This document shows, in pieces, positions 40,500-46,636 of a DNA stretch of 64,000 nucleotides. Within the stretch, counting starts at the first letter, position 1. Every line of letters begins with the position of its first letter. Below the pieces are notes generated by a model. That model saw nothing but the letters and a program-made list of their open reading frames with translations. It made no database searches and was not told where the DNA came from. The translations under genes were made by a program, and so were the position numbers. The DNA is from Rhodothermus marinus DSM 4252 (GTDB lineage Bacteria > Bacteroidota > Rhodothermia > Rhodothermales > Rhodothermaceae), in NCBI RefSeq assembly GCF_000024845.1, contig NC_013501.1, forward strand, positions 1,058,001-1,122,000. Reading direction: 5' to 3'.

Positions 40500-41453
40500 A
40501 TGACAGATAACCCGGTTGCCGTGGATGTAAAAGCGAGGCTTCGGCGGGGGTGGCCCTACCACTATACGATCTATGGGCTGCATGTCTGCTCGGACGTGCC
40601 GCTTCCCGAGCTGAAGCCGGTGGCGCCGGCGGAGGGTGAGGTGTACATCTACCGGGACGTGCTGGCGCCGATGGCCGAAGGGCTGGAGCGGCAGGGGAAC
40701 CGCCTGCGCGTGACCCCCACCGAAGCGCTGCTGATTTACGACGAGGTCGGATTGTTGCGCATTGCGGACGGTCGGTACCTTACCTACGACGTGCCGCCCG
40801 AACTGCCCGACGAGACGCTCCGTGTGCTTCTGCTGGGCATCGGGCTGGGCATTCTGATGCACCAGCGGGGCCATCTGGTGCTGCATGCCAGCGCCGTGGC
40901 CATGGGGGATCGGGTGGTGGCATTCATTGCCGAAAAAGGGCACGGTAAATCGACGATGGCGGCTGCGCTGCATGCGCGGGGCTATCCGCTGGTGACCGAC
41001 GACGTACTCGTGCTGGAGGAGCAGCCGGACGGTCCGCCGCTGGTTCTGCCTGCCTATCCGCAACTCAAGCTCTGGCCGGATGCGCTGGCACAGGCCATGC
41101 AGACGGCACCTGACGGGCTTCCGCGCGTGCATCCAGCCATCGAGAAGCGCGTGGCCCGACTCCCGAACGGGGTGGATCGTCCGTTACCGCTGGCCGCGCT
41201 GTTTGCGCTCCGTCCGGGCGAGACCATCCAGATTCGTCCGTTGCGCGGGCAGGAAGCCTTTCTGGAGTTGCTCCTGCATACCTATACGCGGGTGCTGCTG
41301 GAGCAGACGCGCACCTCGGCCCGCCACCTGCAGCAAGTGGGCCATCTGGCCCGCTACGTGCCGGTGCTGGCGCTGGAGCGTCCGCCCGGGCTGGATCTGT
41401 TGCCCGACGTGGTGGCCGCCGTCGAAACGTTTGTCCGGCGGGAGCTTCCATGA
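40500..41453 (+). CDS. HPr-kinase-like protein of the RiPP cluster
   Basis: 317 aa, starting at the ATG at 40500. The HPr kinase fold is indicated by HLVLHASAVAM (about residues 125-135), the P-loop AEKGHGKST (144-152) and LVTDDVLVL (165-172). The N-terminal HprK domain proper is missing, as in the HprK-like kinases of lasso-peptide clusters (paeninodin type), where they phosphorylate the peptide's C-terminal serine. The precursors here do not end in serine, so its target is open. It is the first gene of the cluster, its stop overlapping the cyclase start (ATGA). The 237 bases upstream show TTGACA at 40424 but no good -10 at the right distance. Confidence 0.82.
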   Translation: MTDNPVAVDVKARLRRGWPYHYTIYGLHVCSDVPLPELKPVAPAEGEVYIYRDVLAPMAEGLERQGNRLRVTPTEALLIYDEVGLLRIADGRYLTYDVPPELPDETLRVLLLGIGLGILMHQRGHLVLHASAVAMGDRVVAFIAEKGHGKSTMAAALHARGYPLVTDDVLVLEEQPDGPPLVLPAYPQLKLWPDALAQAMQTAPDGLPRVHPAIEKRVARLPNGVDRPLPLAALFALRPGETIQIRPLRGQEAFLELLLHTYTRVLLEQTRTSARHLQQVGHLARYVPVLALERPPGLDLLPDVVAAVETFVRRELP

Positions 41454-43480
41454 GCGCCATCTTTGGCCTGATTCATTTCGACGGACGGCCCGTTGCGGTC
41501 GAAGCGCTGCGGCCGGCGCTGGACGTGCTGGCCCATCGGGGACCGGACGGTCAGGGGCGCTGGCACGAGGGCTCCGTGCTGCTGGCGCACTGGATGTTGC
41601 ACACGACGCCGGAGTCGCTGCACGAGCAGCAGCCACTTGTCGCTCCCGAAGGCGATCTGGTGCTGGTGGCCGATGCACGGATCGACAACCGCGACGAGCT
41701 GCTGGCAGCGCTGGGCCTCCGATCCACGGCGGAGCGGCCGGTGACGGACGCCGCGCTGATTCTGGCCGCCTATCGCCGATGGGGGAGCGATTGCCCGGAT
41801 CGGCTGATCGGCGATTTTGCCTTGGCCATCTGGGACCGACGGCACCGACGGCTGTTTGCCGCCCGCGACGGCATGGGTGTGCGACCGTTCTATTATTTCC
41901 ACGACGGCCGACGCTTCGCCTTTGCCACGTTACTCCCGGCCGTGCGTATGCTGCCCGACGTGCCGCAGGACATCGACGAAGAGATGATCCTGCGATTTCT
42001 GACCCTGAAGCTGGAAACGGAAAACGTGCGGACGTTTTACCGGGTGATTCGGCGATTGCCCGGGGGGCATGCGCTCCAGGTGGATGCCCGGGAGCTGCAT
42101 TGCTGGCGTTACTGGCGGGTCGATCTGGAGCAGGAGGTGCACTTTCGGTCGGAAACCGAGTACGTGGAAGCCTTTCGTGCCTGCTTCGAGGAGGCTGTAC
42201 GGTGTCGGCTCCGCAGCGCGTTTCCCGTGGGCACCCAACTCAGTGGGGGGCTGGATTCCTCGTCGGTGACTGGTATGGCGGCACATCTGCTAAAGGATCA
42301 GGTAGTGCATGCCGGGACGGCTGTCTTCGAAGATGTGCCTGAAACACAGCGAATGCAGGTTGATGAACGGCAATATGCTGACGCTGTTGTTCGACGCTTT
42401 CCGAATCTGTGCCATCACCTGTTTCATGCTGATCGCGTAAGTCCCCTGATACACCTGGACAAAGTGGTCGAGCTATACGGGCAGCCCTTCTTTTCGGCGA
42501 ATTATCACATTCCTGTCGGAGTAGCTCAGACGCTGCAATCACAAGGGGTGCGGGTTATTCTGAGCGGGCTGGATGGCGACAGTGTGCTGACCTATGGATG
42601 GGCGCGGCTGGCCGATCTTTTTTACCAAAAGCAATGGGAGCAATTTGCGCAGGAAGTAGAGGCGTTCGCGAAAGTGGAAGGATTGTCTCCGCAGCGCGTC
42701 GCGCAGAAATTCGGAGGCGCTGTTCTCGAAAAGTGGGCGCGATCCTTTCGCTGGAAAGCGTTCCAGGAAGGTGGACGATATCTGGCACAGCGCTTCGGGA
42801 TTCCCTTTGACCGGCTTGTGCTACAGACAGGCATCAAACCCTGGATACCCATTGCCTGGCGCCGTAAGCGAGCCCGCCCACGCTCTCAGGAACGATTCGT
42901 TCGATTTTCTGAAGCCTATCATCTCTCTCCATTGCTGGAGGACTGGCTGGCACGCCAGCCGTCTGAGCAGGCGAGCGGATGGCATCCGCGCCGGGATCAC
43001 TGGGAACAGTTGACGGGAGGCATCTGGCAGTGGGTGCTTGAATTTGCCAACGCGCGCGTTGGCTGGCTTCAGGTTGAAGAACGCTTTCCCTTTTTCGACC
43101 GACGGGTAGTCACCCTGAGTGTGCAATTGCCTCTGGCCTACAAACTGCGCCACGGATGGGCGCGCTACCTTCTGCGTATGGCGCTTGAGGGAATGCTGCC
43201 CCCTGAAGTGCAATGGCGGTCTTCCAAGGCAAATATCGGCTACGGGTTTACGACCGGATTGCTTCGGTTTGAAAAGGCGCGCATAGCCAGTCTGATCGCT
43301 TCCGCTTCGCAATTGAGGCCCTTCGTAGAACCGAAACGGTTGCGTCAGGCATGGGAGCACATGCAGCAGCACAAGGCGGACACTGATCCTTCTGTGGATA
43401 TGGCGTTGTATCTATGTTTGATCCTCCACCAGTGGCTGACGACTGTCTCCGAGGTACCGGTCTCGGCGCAGGCCGAGTGA
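41450..43480 (+). CDS. Asparagine synthetase-like lasso cyclase
   Basis: 676 aa. The N-terminal glutamine-amidotransferase-like domain (residues 1-210: LAHRGPDGQGRW, RRLFAARDGMGVRPFYYF) begins MSAIFG, so the catalytic Cys2 of true asparagine synthetases is Ser and it cannot use glutamine. The synthetase domain has the ATP-PPi motif SGGLDSSS (265-272), ILSGLDGDSVL and a C-terminal FFDRRVVTL region. With the precursor genes, PqqD protein and exporter nearby, it is best read as the ATP-dependent macrolactam-forming enzyme of a lasso-type RiPP. GC content falls inside the gene: 39 of 60 bases at 41581-41640, 30 of 60 at 42361-42420, 29 of 60 at 43381-43440. The downstream part may have a different history. 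Confidence 0.85.
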   Translation: MSAIFGLIHFDGRPVAVEALRPALDVLAHRGPDGQGRWHEGSVLLAHWMLHTTPESLHEQQPLVAPEGDLVLVADARIDNRDELLAALGLRSTAERPVTDAALILAAYRRWGSDCPDRLIGDFALAIWDRRHRRLFAARDGMGVRPFYYFHDGRRFAFATLLPAVRMLPDVPQDIDEEMILRFLTLKLETENVRTFYRVIRRLPGGHALQVDARELHCWRYWRVDLEQEVHFRSETEYVEAFRACFEEAVRCRLRSAFPVGTQLSGGLDSSSVTGMAAHLLKDQVVHAGTAVFEDVPETQRMQVDERQYADAVVRRFPNLCHHLFHADRVSPLIHLDKVVELYGQPFFSANYHIPVGVAQTLQSQGVRVILSGLDGDSVLTYGWARLADLFYQKQWEQFAQEVEAFAKVEGLSPQRVAQKFGGAVLEKWARSFRWKAFQEGGRYLAQRFGIPFDRLVLQTGIKPWIPIAWRRKRARPRSQERFVRFSEAYHLSPLLEDWLARQPSEQASGWHPRRDHWEQLTGGIWQWVLEFANARVGWLQVEERFPFFDRRVVTLSVQLPLAYKLRHGWARYLLRMALEGMLPPEVQWRSSKANIGYGFTTGLLRFEKARIASLIASASQLRPFVEPKRLRQAWEHMQQHKADTDPSVDMALYLCLILHQWLTTVSEVPVSAQAE

Positions 43481-43584
43481 GCCAAAAGCGCATGTAAGTG
43501 CCGCCATTCCTGGTACGGCCGGCCTCAAGAGCATTCGCATCTTTATTACCGAAACCTGTCAAATCAACGTTATGAGGTGCTGCT

Positions 43585-43734
43585 ATGCGTAACACCAAAC
43601 GCTCCTGGAAGACGCCGGTCCTGGTTGTTCACGGAAAGACGCAGGAAATTACGGCTGGCAGTTGCTGGTATGGGAAGCAGGGTGGGCAGTATGACGCCGA
43701 CCTGGGTCCTGGCACGCTCAGCGACTGCCGGTGA
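43585..43734 (+). CDS. Lasso-type RiPP precursor peptide 1
   Basis: 49 aa, GAGGTG five bases before the ATG. The leader has Trp8, Pro11, Leu13, Gly17 and Thr23, i.e. -17, -14, -12, -8 and -2 relative to Gly25, exactly the lasso leader pattern. The predicted core is residues 25-49: it starts GSCWYGKQGG, continues QYDADLG and ends TLSDCR, with two cysteines (core positions 3 and 24). There is no Asp or Glu at core positions 7-9; the first is Asp13. A normal 7-9-residue ring therefore cannot form from Gly1. A disulfide, a larger ring or another cleavage site are possible. Confidence 0.82.
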   Translation: MRNTKRSWKTPVLVVHGKTQEITAGSCWYGKQGGQYDADLGPGTLSDCR

Positions 43735-43788
43735 TTCCCGTCTGAAGCAAACTCCATCCCTGTTCACCATAATAGACTGGGTGCTGCC

Positions 43789-43944
43789 ATGAAGGGCGAA
43801 ACGATCAAGCGGCCCTGGCAGAAGCCGGCACTTGTAATGCACGGCAAGGCCACGGAGGTCACGACTGGTAAGTGCTGGTACGGGAAGCAGGGCGGTCGAT
43901 ATGACGCCGACCTAGGTCCTGGCACGCTCAGCGACTGCCGGTAA
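43789..43944 (+). CDS. Lasso-type RiPP precursor peptide 2
   Basis: 51 aa, paralogue of precursor 1. The leader again has Trp10, Pro13, Leu15, Gly19 and Thr25 at the lasso spacing before Gly27. The 25-residue core differs from precursor 1 at only two places: Lys for Ser at core position 2 and Arg for Gln at position 11. Both cysteines and Asp13, Asp15 and Asp23 are kept. The leader outside the motif positions is quite different, so selection is on the core. The ribosome binding site (GGGTG) is weaker than in copy 1. A terminator follows. Confidence 0.82.
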   Translation: MKGETIKRPWQKPALVMHGKATEVTTGKCWYGKQGGRYDADLGPGTLSDCR

Positions 43945-43964
43945 GGACACGGGATGTTCTTCGG

Positions 43965-44005
43965 AGAAAAGGCGTGGTGCCCGTAATGGGCATCACGCCT
44001 TTTCT
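43965..44005 (+). terminator. Terminator after precursors 1 and 2
   Basis: An 18-base stem with one G-T pair (43965-43982 with 43988-44005, five-base loop) ends in a TTTTCT tract. Partial termination here would make more precursor message than exporter message, as is usual in RiPP operons. Confidence 0.85.
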
Positions 44006-44112
44006 GGTTTGCGCCAGAAGCGCATCTGCGACGCGGAAAAGCACGTTGGTTTCGGAAGAACGCCTGTCTGAAATTTAAAAGCAGTTTCGATCATTCGAAG
44101 ACGAGGACAACC

Positions 44113-44331
44113 ATGAAGGACGCTATCGTTTCGAAAAAGCAGTGGGCGCGCCCGGTGCTAACAGAGTTCGGTTCGCTGGAGACGATGACCGGTTCGGGCT
44201 GGGGGCATCCTCCGGGTCTTCCGGGTGGTGGCTTGAAGTACAAGGGAGGGGGACGTGGCAAAGGCCGGAATCACTGGTGGCATGACCACTACAACAACCG
44301 CTGTCCGGATGACGATCTGAGCGGCCTCTGA
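44113..44331 (+). CDS. Lasso-type RiPP precursor peptide 3, long glycine-rich core
   Basis: 72 aa, GAGGAC before the ATG. The leader again fits: Trp11, Pro14, Leu16, Gly20 and Thr26 stand at -17, -14, -12, -8 and -2 if the core begins at Ser28. The core of 45 residues is unusual: SGWGHPPGLPGGGLKYKGGG, then basic (GRGKGRNHWWHDH), one cysteine (about residue 64), and acidic at the end (PDDDLSGL). No acidic residue lies at core positions 7-9. It may be a different product class using the same leader-recognition machinery. It follows a terminator and precedes the exporter by 82 bases. Confidence 0.75.
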   Translation: MKDAIVSKKQWARPVLTEFGSLETMTGSGWGHPPGLPGGGLKYKGGGRGKGRNHWWHDHYNNRCPDDDLSGL

Positions 44332-44413
44332 GATGGCCGTGCGAAACCGCCCGGTATTCCCCGGCGTCTCACGTTTCAATGAAATTTTTTAATGTGAACG
44401 TTTACTACTGGCC

Positions 44414-46294
44414 GTGTCGTGGCGCTGGGTTCTGAAAGAAGCGCGTCTGAAGACGACCTATCTGGTACGGGCGCTGCGACTCATCTGGGAAGCGACGGGC
44501 CGCTGGACGCTGCTCTGGCTGCTGTTGCTCCTGATCGGGGGCGTGCTCCCGGCCGCCCTGGTGTATCTGACGAAGCACCTGGTGGATGCCGTCGCGGCCG
44601 CCATCGGGGCCGGACTCTCCTGGGAGACCGTGCAGCCTGTCCTGTGGCCGGCCCTGCTGATGGGCGGCGTGCTGCTGCTCTCGCAGGGGCTGAGCGGATT
44701 GACGAGCTGGATCCGCACGGCCCAGGCCGAGCATGTGCTGGATCATGTGAAAGACCTGATCCACACCAAGGCGGCCGAGGTCGATCTGGCCTTTTACGAC
44801 AACCCGGACTACTACGACCACCTGGAGCGGGCCAACAGCGAGGCGGCCAGCCGCTCGCTCTCGCTGCTGGACAACCTGGGCAGCCTGCTTCAGAACGGCG
44901 TCACGCTCGTCAGCATCGCGGCCATCCTGGTGCACTACAGCATCTGGCTCCCGCTGGCGTTGCTCATCACCACGCTCCCGGCGCTGTTCGTCGTGGTGCA
45001 CCACCACCGGCGCGAACACGCCTGGTGGACGGCCCACACCGTCGATCAACGCCGCGCCGGATACTTCGACCGCCTGCTGACCATGGCGTTCTTTGCCCCG
45101 GAAGTGCGCGTGTTCGACCTGGCCGGCCACTTCCGTCAGCGGTACCAGGAGGTGCGCCAGCGGCTGCGGGAAGGGCGTCTGGACCTGATGCGTCGCCAGG
45201 CCTGGGCCAGTCTGGGCGCCGGACTGGTGGGCTTGCTGGCCACGGCGCTCGTGATGGTCTGGATGGTGGGCCGGGCGCTGCGCGGGCTGGCCTCGCTGGG
45301 TGACCTGGCGCTGTTCTACCAGGCCTTCAATCAGGGGCAGGGCCTCATGCGCGCGTTGCTCAGCAGCGCCGGACAGATGTACGCGAACACGCTCTTTCTG
45401 GAGCACCTGTTTACCTTTCTGGAAATTCAGACCGGCCTGCCCGATCCGGAGGATCCGGTGCCCGTGCCGCGGCGGCTCCGGGAGGGCATCCGCTTCGAAA
45501 AGGTCACCTTCCGCTATCCGGACAGCGAGCGACCGGTCCTCCGACAGCTCGATCTGTTCATTCCGGCCGGAAAGACCGTCGCCATCGTGGGCGCCAACGG
45601 CGCCGGCAAAAGTACGCTCATCAAGCTGTTGTGCCGATTTTACGATCCAGACGAAGGGCGCGTCACCCTCGACGGGATCGATCTGCGGCGCTTTCGCCGG
45701 CGCGAGCTGCTCGATGCGATTACCGTGCTGTTTCAGTTTCCCGTGCCCTATCAGGACACGCTGGCCCGCAACATCGCGCTGGGCGACCTCAAGGTGCCGC
45801 CCACCCGTGAGGCAATCGAACGGGCGGCCCGCAGCGCCATGGTGGACGAAATCGCCCGCAAGCTGCCCTACGGCTACGATACGCTACTGGGCAAGTGGTT
45901 TTCAGAAGAAGGGGCCGAACTCAGCGGGGGCGAATGGCAGCGCGTGTCGCTGGCCCGGGCCTTCTACCGGCAGGCGCCCATCGTCGTGCTCGACGAGCCC
46001 ACCAGTGCGATGGATTCGTGGACCGAGGCCGAGTGGATGGACCGTTTCGACGAGCTGGTGCGCGGCCGCACCGCGCTGATCATCACGCACCGGTTCACCA
46101 CGGCCATGCGGGCCGATCTGATCTACGTGATGGACGAGGGACGCGTCATCGAACAGGGCACGCATCACCAACTCCTGGCCCTGAACGGCCACTACGCCGC
46201 CTCCTGGCGACGGCAGATGCGGCAACATGACGAGCCCGAAGCTTCCGATCTTTCCGCGCAAGTTTTCTTGCCGGGTGCCGATAAAAACCAGTAG
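44414..46294 (+). CDS. ABC exporter of the RiPP cluster
   Basis: 626 aa, half-size ABC exporter: six-helix permease domain (about residues 1-330) and an ATPase domain with Walker A GANGAGKST (393-401), signature LSGGEWQR (503-510) and Walker B VVLDEPTSAMD. It starts with GTG. There is no N-terminal peptidase C39 domain, so it exports but does not cleave. It matches the D component of lasso clusters and probably secretes or confers immunity to the products of the three precursors. Confidence 0.88.
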   Translation: MSWRWVLKEARLKTTYLVRALRLIWEATGRWTLLWLLLLLIGGVLPAALVYLTKHLVDAVAAAIGAGLSWETVQPVLWPALLMGGVLLLSQGLSGLTSWIRTAQAEHVLDHVKDLIHTKAAEVDLAFYDNPDYYDHLERANSEAASRSLSLLDNLGSLLQNGVTLVSIAAILVHYSIWLPLALLITTLPALFVVVHHHRREHAWWTAHTVDQRRAGYFDRLLTMAFFAPEVRVFDLAGHFRQRYQEVRQRLREGRLDLMRRQAWASLGAGLVGLLATALVMVWMVGRALRGLASLGDLALFYQAFNQGQGLMRALLSSAGQMYANTLFLEHLFTFLEIQTGLPDPEDPVPVPRRLREGIRFEKVTFRYPDSERPVLRQLDLFIPAGKTVAIVGANGAGKSTLIKLLCRFYDPDEGRVTLDGIDLRRFRRRELLDAITVLFQFPVPYQDTLARNIALGDLKVPPTREAIERAARSAMVDEIARKLPYGYDTLLGKWFSEEGAELSGGEWQRVSLARAFYRQAPIVVLDEPTSAMDSWTEAEWMDRFDELVRGRTALIITHRFTTAMRADLIYVMDEGRVIEQGTHHQLLALNGHYAASWRRQMRQHDEPEASDLSAQVFLPGADKNQ

Positions 46295-46312
46295 TTTTAA
46301 AATGGAGTACTC

Positions 46313-46636
46313 ATGAGTCGAATGGACACACCGATGGCGCACGCCGTGCTGACGCTGGACACCGTTGTCGTCGCTTCTCCCGAGCAGGTCTCGTCAAAGC
46401 TGGGCGAGGAAGTGGTCATTCTGAATCTTCGCAACGGGGTCTACTACGGACTGGACCCCATCGGCACCCGCATCTGGGAGCTCATCCAGGAACCGCGCTC
46501 CGTGCGTCAGGTGTGCGAGGTGCTGCTCGAAGAGTACGACGTGACCTTCGAGCAGTGCGCCGAGGACGTGCTGGCCCTCATGCGCGATCTGCAGGCACAG
46601 GGCCTCATCGAGACACGCGACGCTCAGGGCACGTAA
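46313..46636 (+). CDS. PqqD-type RiPP recognition element (B1)
   Basis: 107 aa. SKLGEEVVILNLRNGVYYGLDPIGTRIWELI and the later VCEVLLEEYDVTFEQCAEDVLALMRDL are typical of PqqD/RRE proteins, which bind the leader peptide and present it to the modifying enzymes. In lasso clusters this is B1 and is normally next to or fused with B2, the transglutaminase-like leader protease. Here no B2 follows: the next gene is on the other strand and its 3' end overlaps this one by 13 bases. Confidence 0.88.
   Translation: MSRMDTPMAHAVLTLDTVVVASPEQVSSKLGEEVVILNLRNGVYYGLDPIGTRIWELIQEPRSVRQVCEVLLEEYDVTFEQCAEDVLALMRDLQAQGLIETRDAQGT

Follow-up and report, generated by a model that had tools for sequence, protein, structure and literature searches.

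How would a lasso-type cluster make its product if none of its precursors carries an acidic residue where the ring normally closes? The question is raised by a locus for ribosomally synthesized and post-translationally modified peptides (RiPPs) in Rhodothermus marinus DSM 4252, where an HprK-like kinase, a lasso-peptide cyclase, three precursors (P1, P2, and P3), an ABC exporter, and a PqqD-type protein follow one another on the plus strand. The locus lies in a 64,000-nucleotide stretch of contig NC_013501.1, here called the window. This gene set had been named in an original prediction that used no database searches, and all of its members were found in place. Characterized lasso rings all start from the N-terminal amine, which fixes the position of the ring and restricts both design and genome mining; mining tools for lasso peptides look for an acid at core positions 7 to 9. 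We find that P1 and P2 belong to a precursor type with an invariant lysine at a constant distance from an invariant aspartate. At a probability that we put somewhat short of even, we favor an active cluster with two kinds of product, in which P1 and P2 would carry a side-chain macrolactam between Lys7 and Asp13 and a disulfide between Cys3 and Cys24.

Conserved cores without a ring acceptor

The leaders of P1, P2, and P3 share an aromatic residue at −17, Pro at −14, Leu at −12, Gly at −8, and Thr at −2, the spacing claimed originally. Counting from Thr-2 sets the start of the core and gives 25 residues for P1 and P2 and 45 residues for P3. No core has Asp or Glu at positions 7 to 9; the first acid is Asp13 in P1 and P2, again as claimed, and Asp31 in P3. 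Characterized lasso rings have 7 to 9 residues, counted from the N terminus (PMC13352647, PMC9266682). With the same leader rule applied on both sides, an acid at core positions 7 to 9 is present in 97 of 117 precursors adjoining homologous cyclases outside the genus versus 0 of 15 in Rhodothermus, the sequences being related and hence not independent. The absence of the acceptor is far from chance, and it is real and conserved in Rhodothermus.

A search of homologues for invariant residues had been proposed with the original prediction. In an alignment of ten P1/P2-type precursors from six species, Cys3, Lys7, Gly10, Asp13, Leu21, Ser22, and Cys24 are invariant, and the conserved element reads Cys…K-x-x-G-x-[YG]-D…Cys. 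This block is shifted relative to the leader by insertions, either of two residues ahead of the Cys or of five that separate it from the Lys. The Lys accordingly varies in position (7, 9, or 13 of the core), and the distance from Lys to Asp is constant at i+6. Asp13 is present in all ten sequences. Asp15 is replaced by His or Tyr in two orthologues, which rules out a core starting at residue 9 with Asp15 as the acceptor at its position 7, one of the options raised earlier. The block is retained as CLKPSGVGD (KPSGVGD) in a diverged paralogue at L065. This locus (2432-2650 and 2762-2950) is a second lasso cluster of Rhodothermus sp. G171 with a cyclase of its own, in which a strongly diverged Lys-Asp precursor, with Ile at −2, adjoins a P3-type one. 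Wherever a cluster could be read far enough, its Lys-Asp precursor is joined by P3 or by the start of P3.

Judged by its sequence, P3 is a different kind of core, separate from P1 and P2, and the joint treatment of all three precursors in the original prediction did not hold. Among six orthologues the ends of the P3 core are conserved (SGWGxPP and LSGL) with no conserved acid, and the core of the G167 orthologue (L052, 9442-9660) has no Asp or Glu at all. In at least one species, therefore, P3 cannot form the usual Asp/Glu lactam. In most species, Gly, His, and Trp are abundant in the P3 core (window positions 44236-44310), a composition possibly related to metal binding or membrane activity.

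By its NF033535 score and intact synthetase motifs, the enzyme next to these precursors is an asparagine-synthetase-like lasso cyclase, and it retains every near-invariant residue of the family, including SGGLDS, DGD, and the Arg/Lys of WRxxK. The Rhodothermus cyclases form a single clade with full support. All eight have Ser2 and so lack Cys2, the glutaminase nucleophile of asparagine-synthetase-like RiPP enzymes that amidate or form nitriles. The original prediction had singled out this Ser2; it is present but not unusual, as nearly all related lasso cyclases start MSG or MSA, and as the family norm it is ruled out as a mark of altered chemistry. The few cyclase columns that shift in step with the loss of the acceptor (Glu161 to Leu, Glu244 to Ala, and Cys557 to Ser) are uninterpretable without a structure; a search by sequence found no lasso cyclase among solved structures.

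A putative lactam from Lys7 to Asp13

We propose that the PqqD-type protein (B1) would bind the leaders and that the leader peptidase B2, encoded elsewhere in the genome, would cleave after Thr-X, with Thr at −2. The cyclase would adenylate Asp13 of P1 and P2, and the attack on the activated residue would most likely come from the Lys7 side-chain amine, not from the N-terminal amine. The product would be a putatively threaded, 7-residue lactam of 26 atoms with a free N-terminal arm of six residues, which the Cys3-Cys24 disulfide would tie to the tail. By bond count, closure on Asp gives N-terminal rings of 7, 8, and 9 residues a size of 22, 25, and 28 atoms, respectively, and closure on Glu adds one atom. 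A ring of 26 atoms thus falls within the canonical lasso range of 22 to 29, and the cyclase could hold a familiar ring size with a changed nucleophile. The tails TLSDCR and DLSGL resemble the LTFS tails of canonical relatives, which makes the tail Ser a likely target of the HprK-like kinase, whose predicted activity would probably phosphorylate it. The ABC protein would export the product. P3 would have leader and export in common with P1 and P2 and would probably not be cyclized by Lys-Asp chemistry. Of the original proposals, it is a different bond that survives as the best reading, and the core-9 start, the weight on Ser2, and the inclusion of P3 fall away.

The motif recurs outside the genus, where KxxGxxD is found in 14 of 20 cores that lack an acid at positions 7 to 9 (failing cores) versus 4 of 97 ordinary cores. 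All failing cores of L064 (Salinibacteraceae), L085 (Rokubacteria), and L090 and L107 (both Acidobacteriota) contain it. The rule was formed first and then tried on newly fetched loci. At L209, from one Acidobacteriota class and fetched after the rule, both of the new failing precursors have the motif and the ordinary ones do not; the corresponding counts are 3/6 distinct failing cores adjoining a cyclase in Cyanobacteria and 4/7 failing cores in Rokubacteria together with a further Acidobacteriota class. In Rhodothermus, L064, L107, and L209, a Cys also stands between the leader and the Lys, with a second Cys after the Asp.

Several observations weigh against a Lys7-Asp13 bond. To our knowledge, all characterized lasso cyclases use the N-terminal amine. 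The Fisher value for the motif contrast (2e-10) overstates the evidence because the sequences are related, and by core shuffling the motif has a probability of only 0.01-0.05 per core. KxxGxxD also occurs in four canonical cores, and six failing cores lack it, with Asp at position 10 (five cores) or 11 (one core). Alpha-amine rings of 10 residues may exist, and relatives with a Lys4-Asp10 pair fit a 10-residue ring from residue 1 equally well. Clear support for Lys is limited to Rhodothermus, L064, and L107, with weaker support from L209 and from Lys5-Asp11 cores. A single origin of the KxxGxxD type was rejected, its members being clustered on the trees but not forming one clade: one tree places L064, with modest support, beside the Rhodothermus clade, another places L107 there, and a third leaves both unplaced.

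The main rival lies within the same Lys-Asp pattern. A leader cut or a second trimming directly ahead of Lys7 would give a conventional 7-residue alpha-amine ring, K1-Q-G-G-Q-Y-D7, which is exactly the size that the constant i+6 spacing allows, and in a cyanobacterial relative (L084) the core begins with Lys and has Asp7 under the normal Thr-2 rule. Yet the Rhodothermus precursors retain Thr-2 with the canonical W-17/P-14/L-12/G-8 spacing, the distance from Thr to Lys is variable, and the residue preceding the Lys is unconserved. Further, the invariant Cys between Thr and Lys, matched by the invariant Cys near the C terminus, suggests that this segment stays in the product. We consider such a displaced cut unlikely.

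We regard as improbable, too, that P1 and P2 form no macrolactam and stay linear, or only disulfide-bridged and phosphorylated, with the cyclase serving only as a chaperone or catalyzing another reaction such as amidation. Asparagine-synthetase-like enzymes of other RiPPs do amidate or form nitriles (PMC13060819). The acid-free P3 orthologue of G167 is conserved next to a cyclase, and in Cyanobacteria, clusters that share the leader, kinase, and exporter and encode acid-free cores contain a glycosyltransferase but no cyclase. Against this stand the strong conservation of the cyclase, which scores as a lasso cyclase, and the invariance of Lys7 and Asp13. Amidation requires ammonia or glutamine, and a glutamine-fed reaction is unlikely for a cyclase without Cys2.

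Doubt is greater for a macrolactam larger than any known, from the N-terminal residue to Asp13, the first option of the original prediction. Asp13 is the sole invariant acid, and elsewhere the first usable acid stands at 10 or 11, so rings slightly larger than 9 residues may occur. The option is weakened by the orthologues, in which such a ring would span 13, 15, or 19 residues (18-19 in L064 and L107) against a fixed Lys-Asp distance, and by the 7 to 9 residues of characterized rings (PMC13352647).

Turning back to the lactam between Lys and Asp, we propose, a little more loosely still, that one branch of lasso cyclases has changed its nucleophile and joins an internal Lys side chain to Asp at i+6 with an N-terminal arm outside the ring, in Rhodothermota, Acidobacteriota, and perhaps Cyanobacteria and Rokubacteria. 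If so, a lasso could form within a peptide chain whose N-terminal arm remains free, and the product would become predictable for many precursors currently skipped or misannotated. The idea of a Lys-started ring is directly testable through the i+6 KxxGxxD rule. A literature search that did not cover subscription papers found no report on the Rhodothermus peptides or on lasso rings started by Lys.

As a separate observation, precursors at L271, L272, L270, L323, L336, and L338, each with an adjacent cyclase, lack KxxGxxD, and their first usable Asp is residue 10 of the core, or residue 11 in one precursor of L338. They are candidates for rings of 10-11 residues or for cleavage displaced by one or two residues.

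A leader peptidase outside the cluster

The original prediction had missed that B2 (PF13471), a transglutaminase-like peptidase, is absent from the cluster. No hidden copy was found in the window, and the only PF13471 match of the genome is an intact gene about 0.74 Mb away, within a nucleotidyltransferase-B2-kinase-PqqD cassette. B2 is split from the lasso cluster in 7/7 Rhodothermus species and is intact in all seven. Two species have retained B2 and its PqqD in the remote cassette but have a missing or broken kinase (kin2) and a nucleotidyltransferase that is either absent or interrupted by stops. That B2 stays intact while its cassette neighbors decay suggests that it is retained for another job. 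No extra precursor adjoining the remote B2 was found in G000 or the other Rhodothermus species, and the simplest reading is that this B2 would act for the lasso cluster in trans. G166 and G184, relatives with canonical cores, likewise have B2 only at a locus away from the cyclase, so a remote B2 alone does not explain the odd cores. Stand-alone cassettes of a nucleotidyltransferase, B2, an HprK-like kinase, and PqqD, with no precursor, were seen at L079 (7208-10078) and at L159-L164 (Rhodothermus).

Pairwise ratios of nonsynonymous to synonymous substitution (dN/dS) of P1, P2, and P3 are about 0.05-0.3 among four species, with changes mostly at third positions. The precursors are under purifying selection, and together with the intact synthetase motifs of the cyclase this means that the cluster is not a remnant. 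A degenerate locus with no product, an outcome allowed for in the original prediction and one that the absence of B2 from the cluster might suggest, is so improbable that we reject it: selection acts on all three precursors, the genes are intact across several species, each of the seven genomes has an intact B2 elsewhere, and G166 and G184 combine canonical cores with the same remote arrangement.

Relation to known systems and features of the locus

Earlier it was held that any of the proposed explanations would be new. The cluster itself is of a known kind: P1 and P2 are both included in the NCBIfam family NF033534 ("rhodolasso"; curated cut-off, 30 bits) and were thus catalogued as lasso peptides beforehand, under an annotation that consists of the name "lasso peptide" alone and does not mention a ring. 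P3 does not match NF033534, and its G167 orthologue reaches 17.1 bits, under the cut-off. What is new here is the Lys-Asp pattern and the proposed action of B2 in trans. The coordinates of the features are given in Table 1; no peptidase domain was found in the ABC exporter.

Table 1. Genes of the lasso-type cluster, in window coordinates
Feature	Coordinates	Strand	Description
HprK-like kinase	40500..41453	+	317 aa, ATG at 40500; TIGR04352 (HprK-related kinase A) 41.8 bits, under cut-off
Lasso-peptide cyclase, asparagine-synthetase-like	41450..43480	+	676 aa; NF033535 837.8 bits (cut-off 525)
Precursor P1	43585..43734	+	49 aa; core GSCWYGKQGGQYDADLGPGTLSDCR with Cys3, Lys7, Asp13, Cys24; NF033534 103.1 bits
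Precursor P2	43789..43944	+	51 aa; core GKCWYGKQGGRYDADLGPGTLSDCR; NF033534 109.0 bits
Precursor P3	44113..44331	+	72 aa; 45-residue core rich in Gly/Pro/Trp/His; leader as in P1 and P2
ABC exporter	44414..46294	+	GTG start; PF00005 and PF00664
PqqD-type leader-binding protein (B1/RRE)	46313..46636	+	PF05402; NF033536 (lasso_PqqD_Bac) 80.4 bits (cut-off 80)

With lasso peptides (NF033535), the cluster shares the Thr-2 leader motif Y/WxxPxLxxxG, B1/PqqD, the cyclase, the exporter, and a B2 in the genome; it differs in its cores, which have no acid at 7 to 9 and a Lys-Asp i+6 pair deeper in, and in the position of B2 outside the cluster. The kinase has LH129A, GHGK150S, and TD167D168, the His/Lys/Asp-Asp set known from lasso tailoring kinases (PMC9266682), and most lasso clusters of the same order come with an HprK-like kinase. 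Such a kinase with His-Lys-Asp-Asp, together with a conserved Ser near the core C terminus, resembles paeninodin-type phosphorylated lasso clusters (PadeK, ThcoK, and SyanK). In Rhodothermus, in contrast, the Ser is fourth from the end (Ser22 of 25 in P1 and P2) or third (Ser43 of 45 in P3) rather than terminal, and the kinase activity is a prediction. The putative Lys-Asp lactam would be the same type of side-chain to side-chain bond as in graspetides, which use ATP-grasp ligases, whereas Rhodothermus has an asparagine-synthetase-like lasso cyclase. An asparagine-synthetase fold working on a peptide is likewise found in the RiPP amidases and nitrile synthetases TsrC, ScdTA, and PesC (PMC13060819), but the Rhodothermus enzyme has Ser2 instead of Cys2 and groups with lasso cyclases.

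Three cyanobacterial clusters (L268, L269, and L273, from G497, G426, and G674, respectively) have lasso-type leaders, a kinase, an exporter, and PqqD, with acid-poor or acid-free cores of the form QVGGSGGF-TT... The place where the cyclase would be expected is taken by a glycosyltransferase (confirmed with Pfam in L268), and the product is possibly a glycosylated, non-lasso RiPP. By analogy, these clusters suggest that the same chassis can serve uncyclized cores, of which P3 may be one. Elsewhere in the Rhodothermaceae, the lasso cyclase gene at L152 (6001-8947) is split by about 1.2 kb of transposase-like sequence on the opposite strand.

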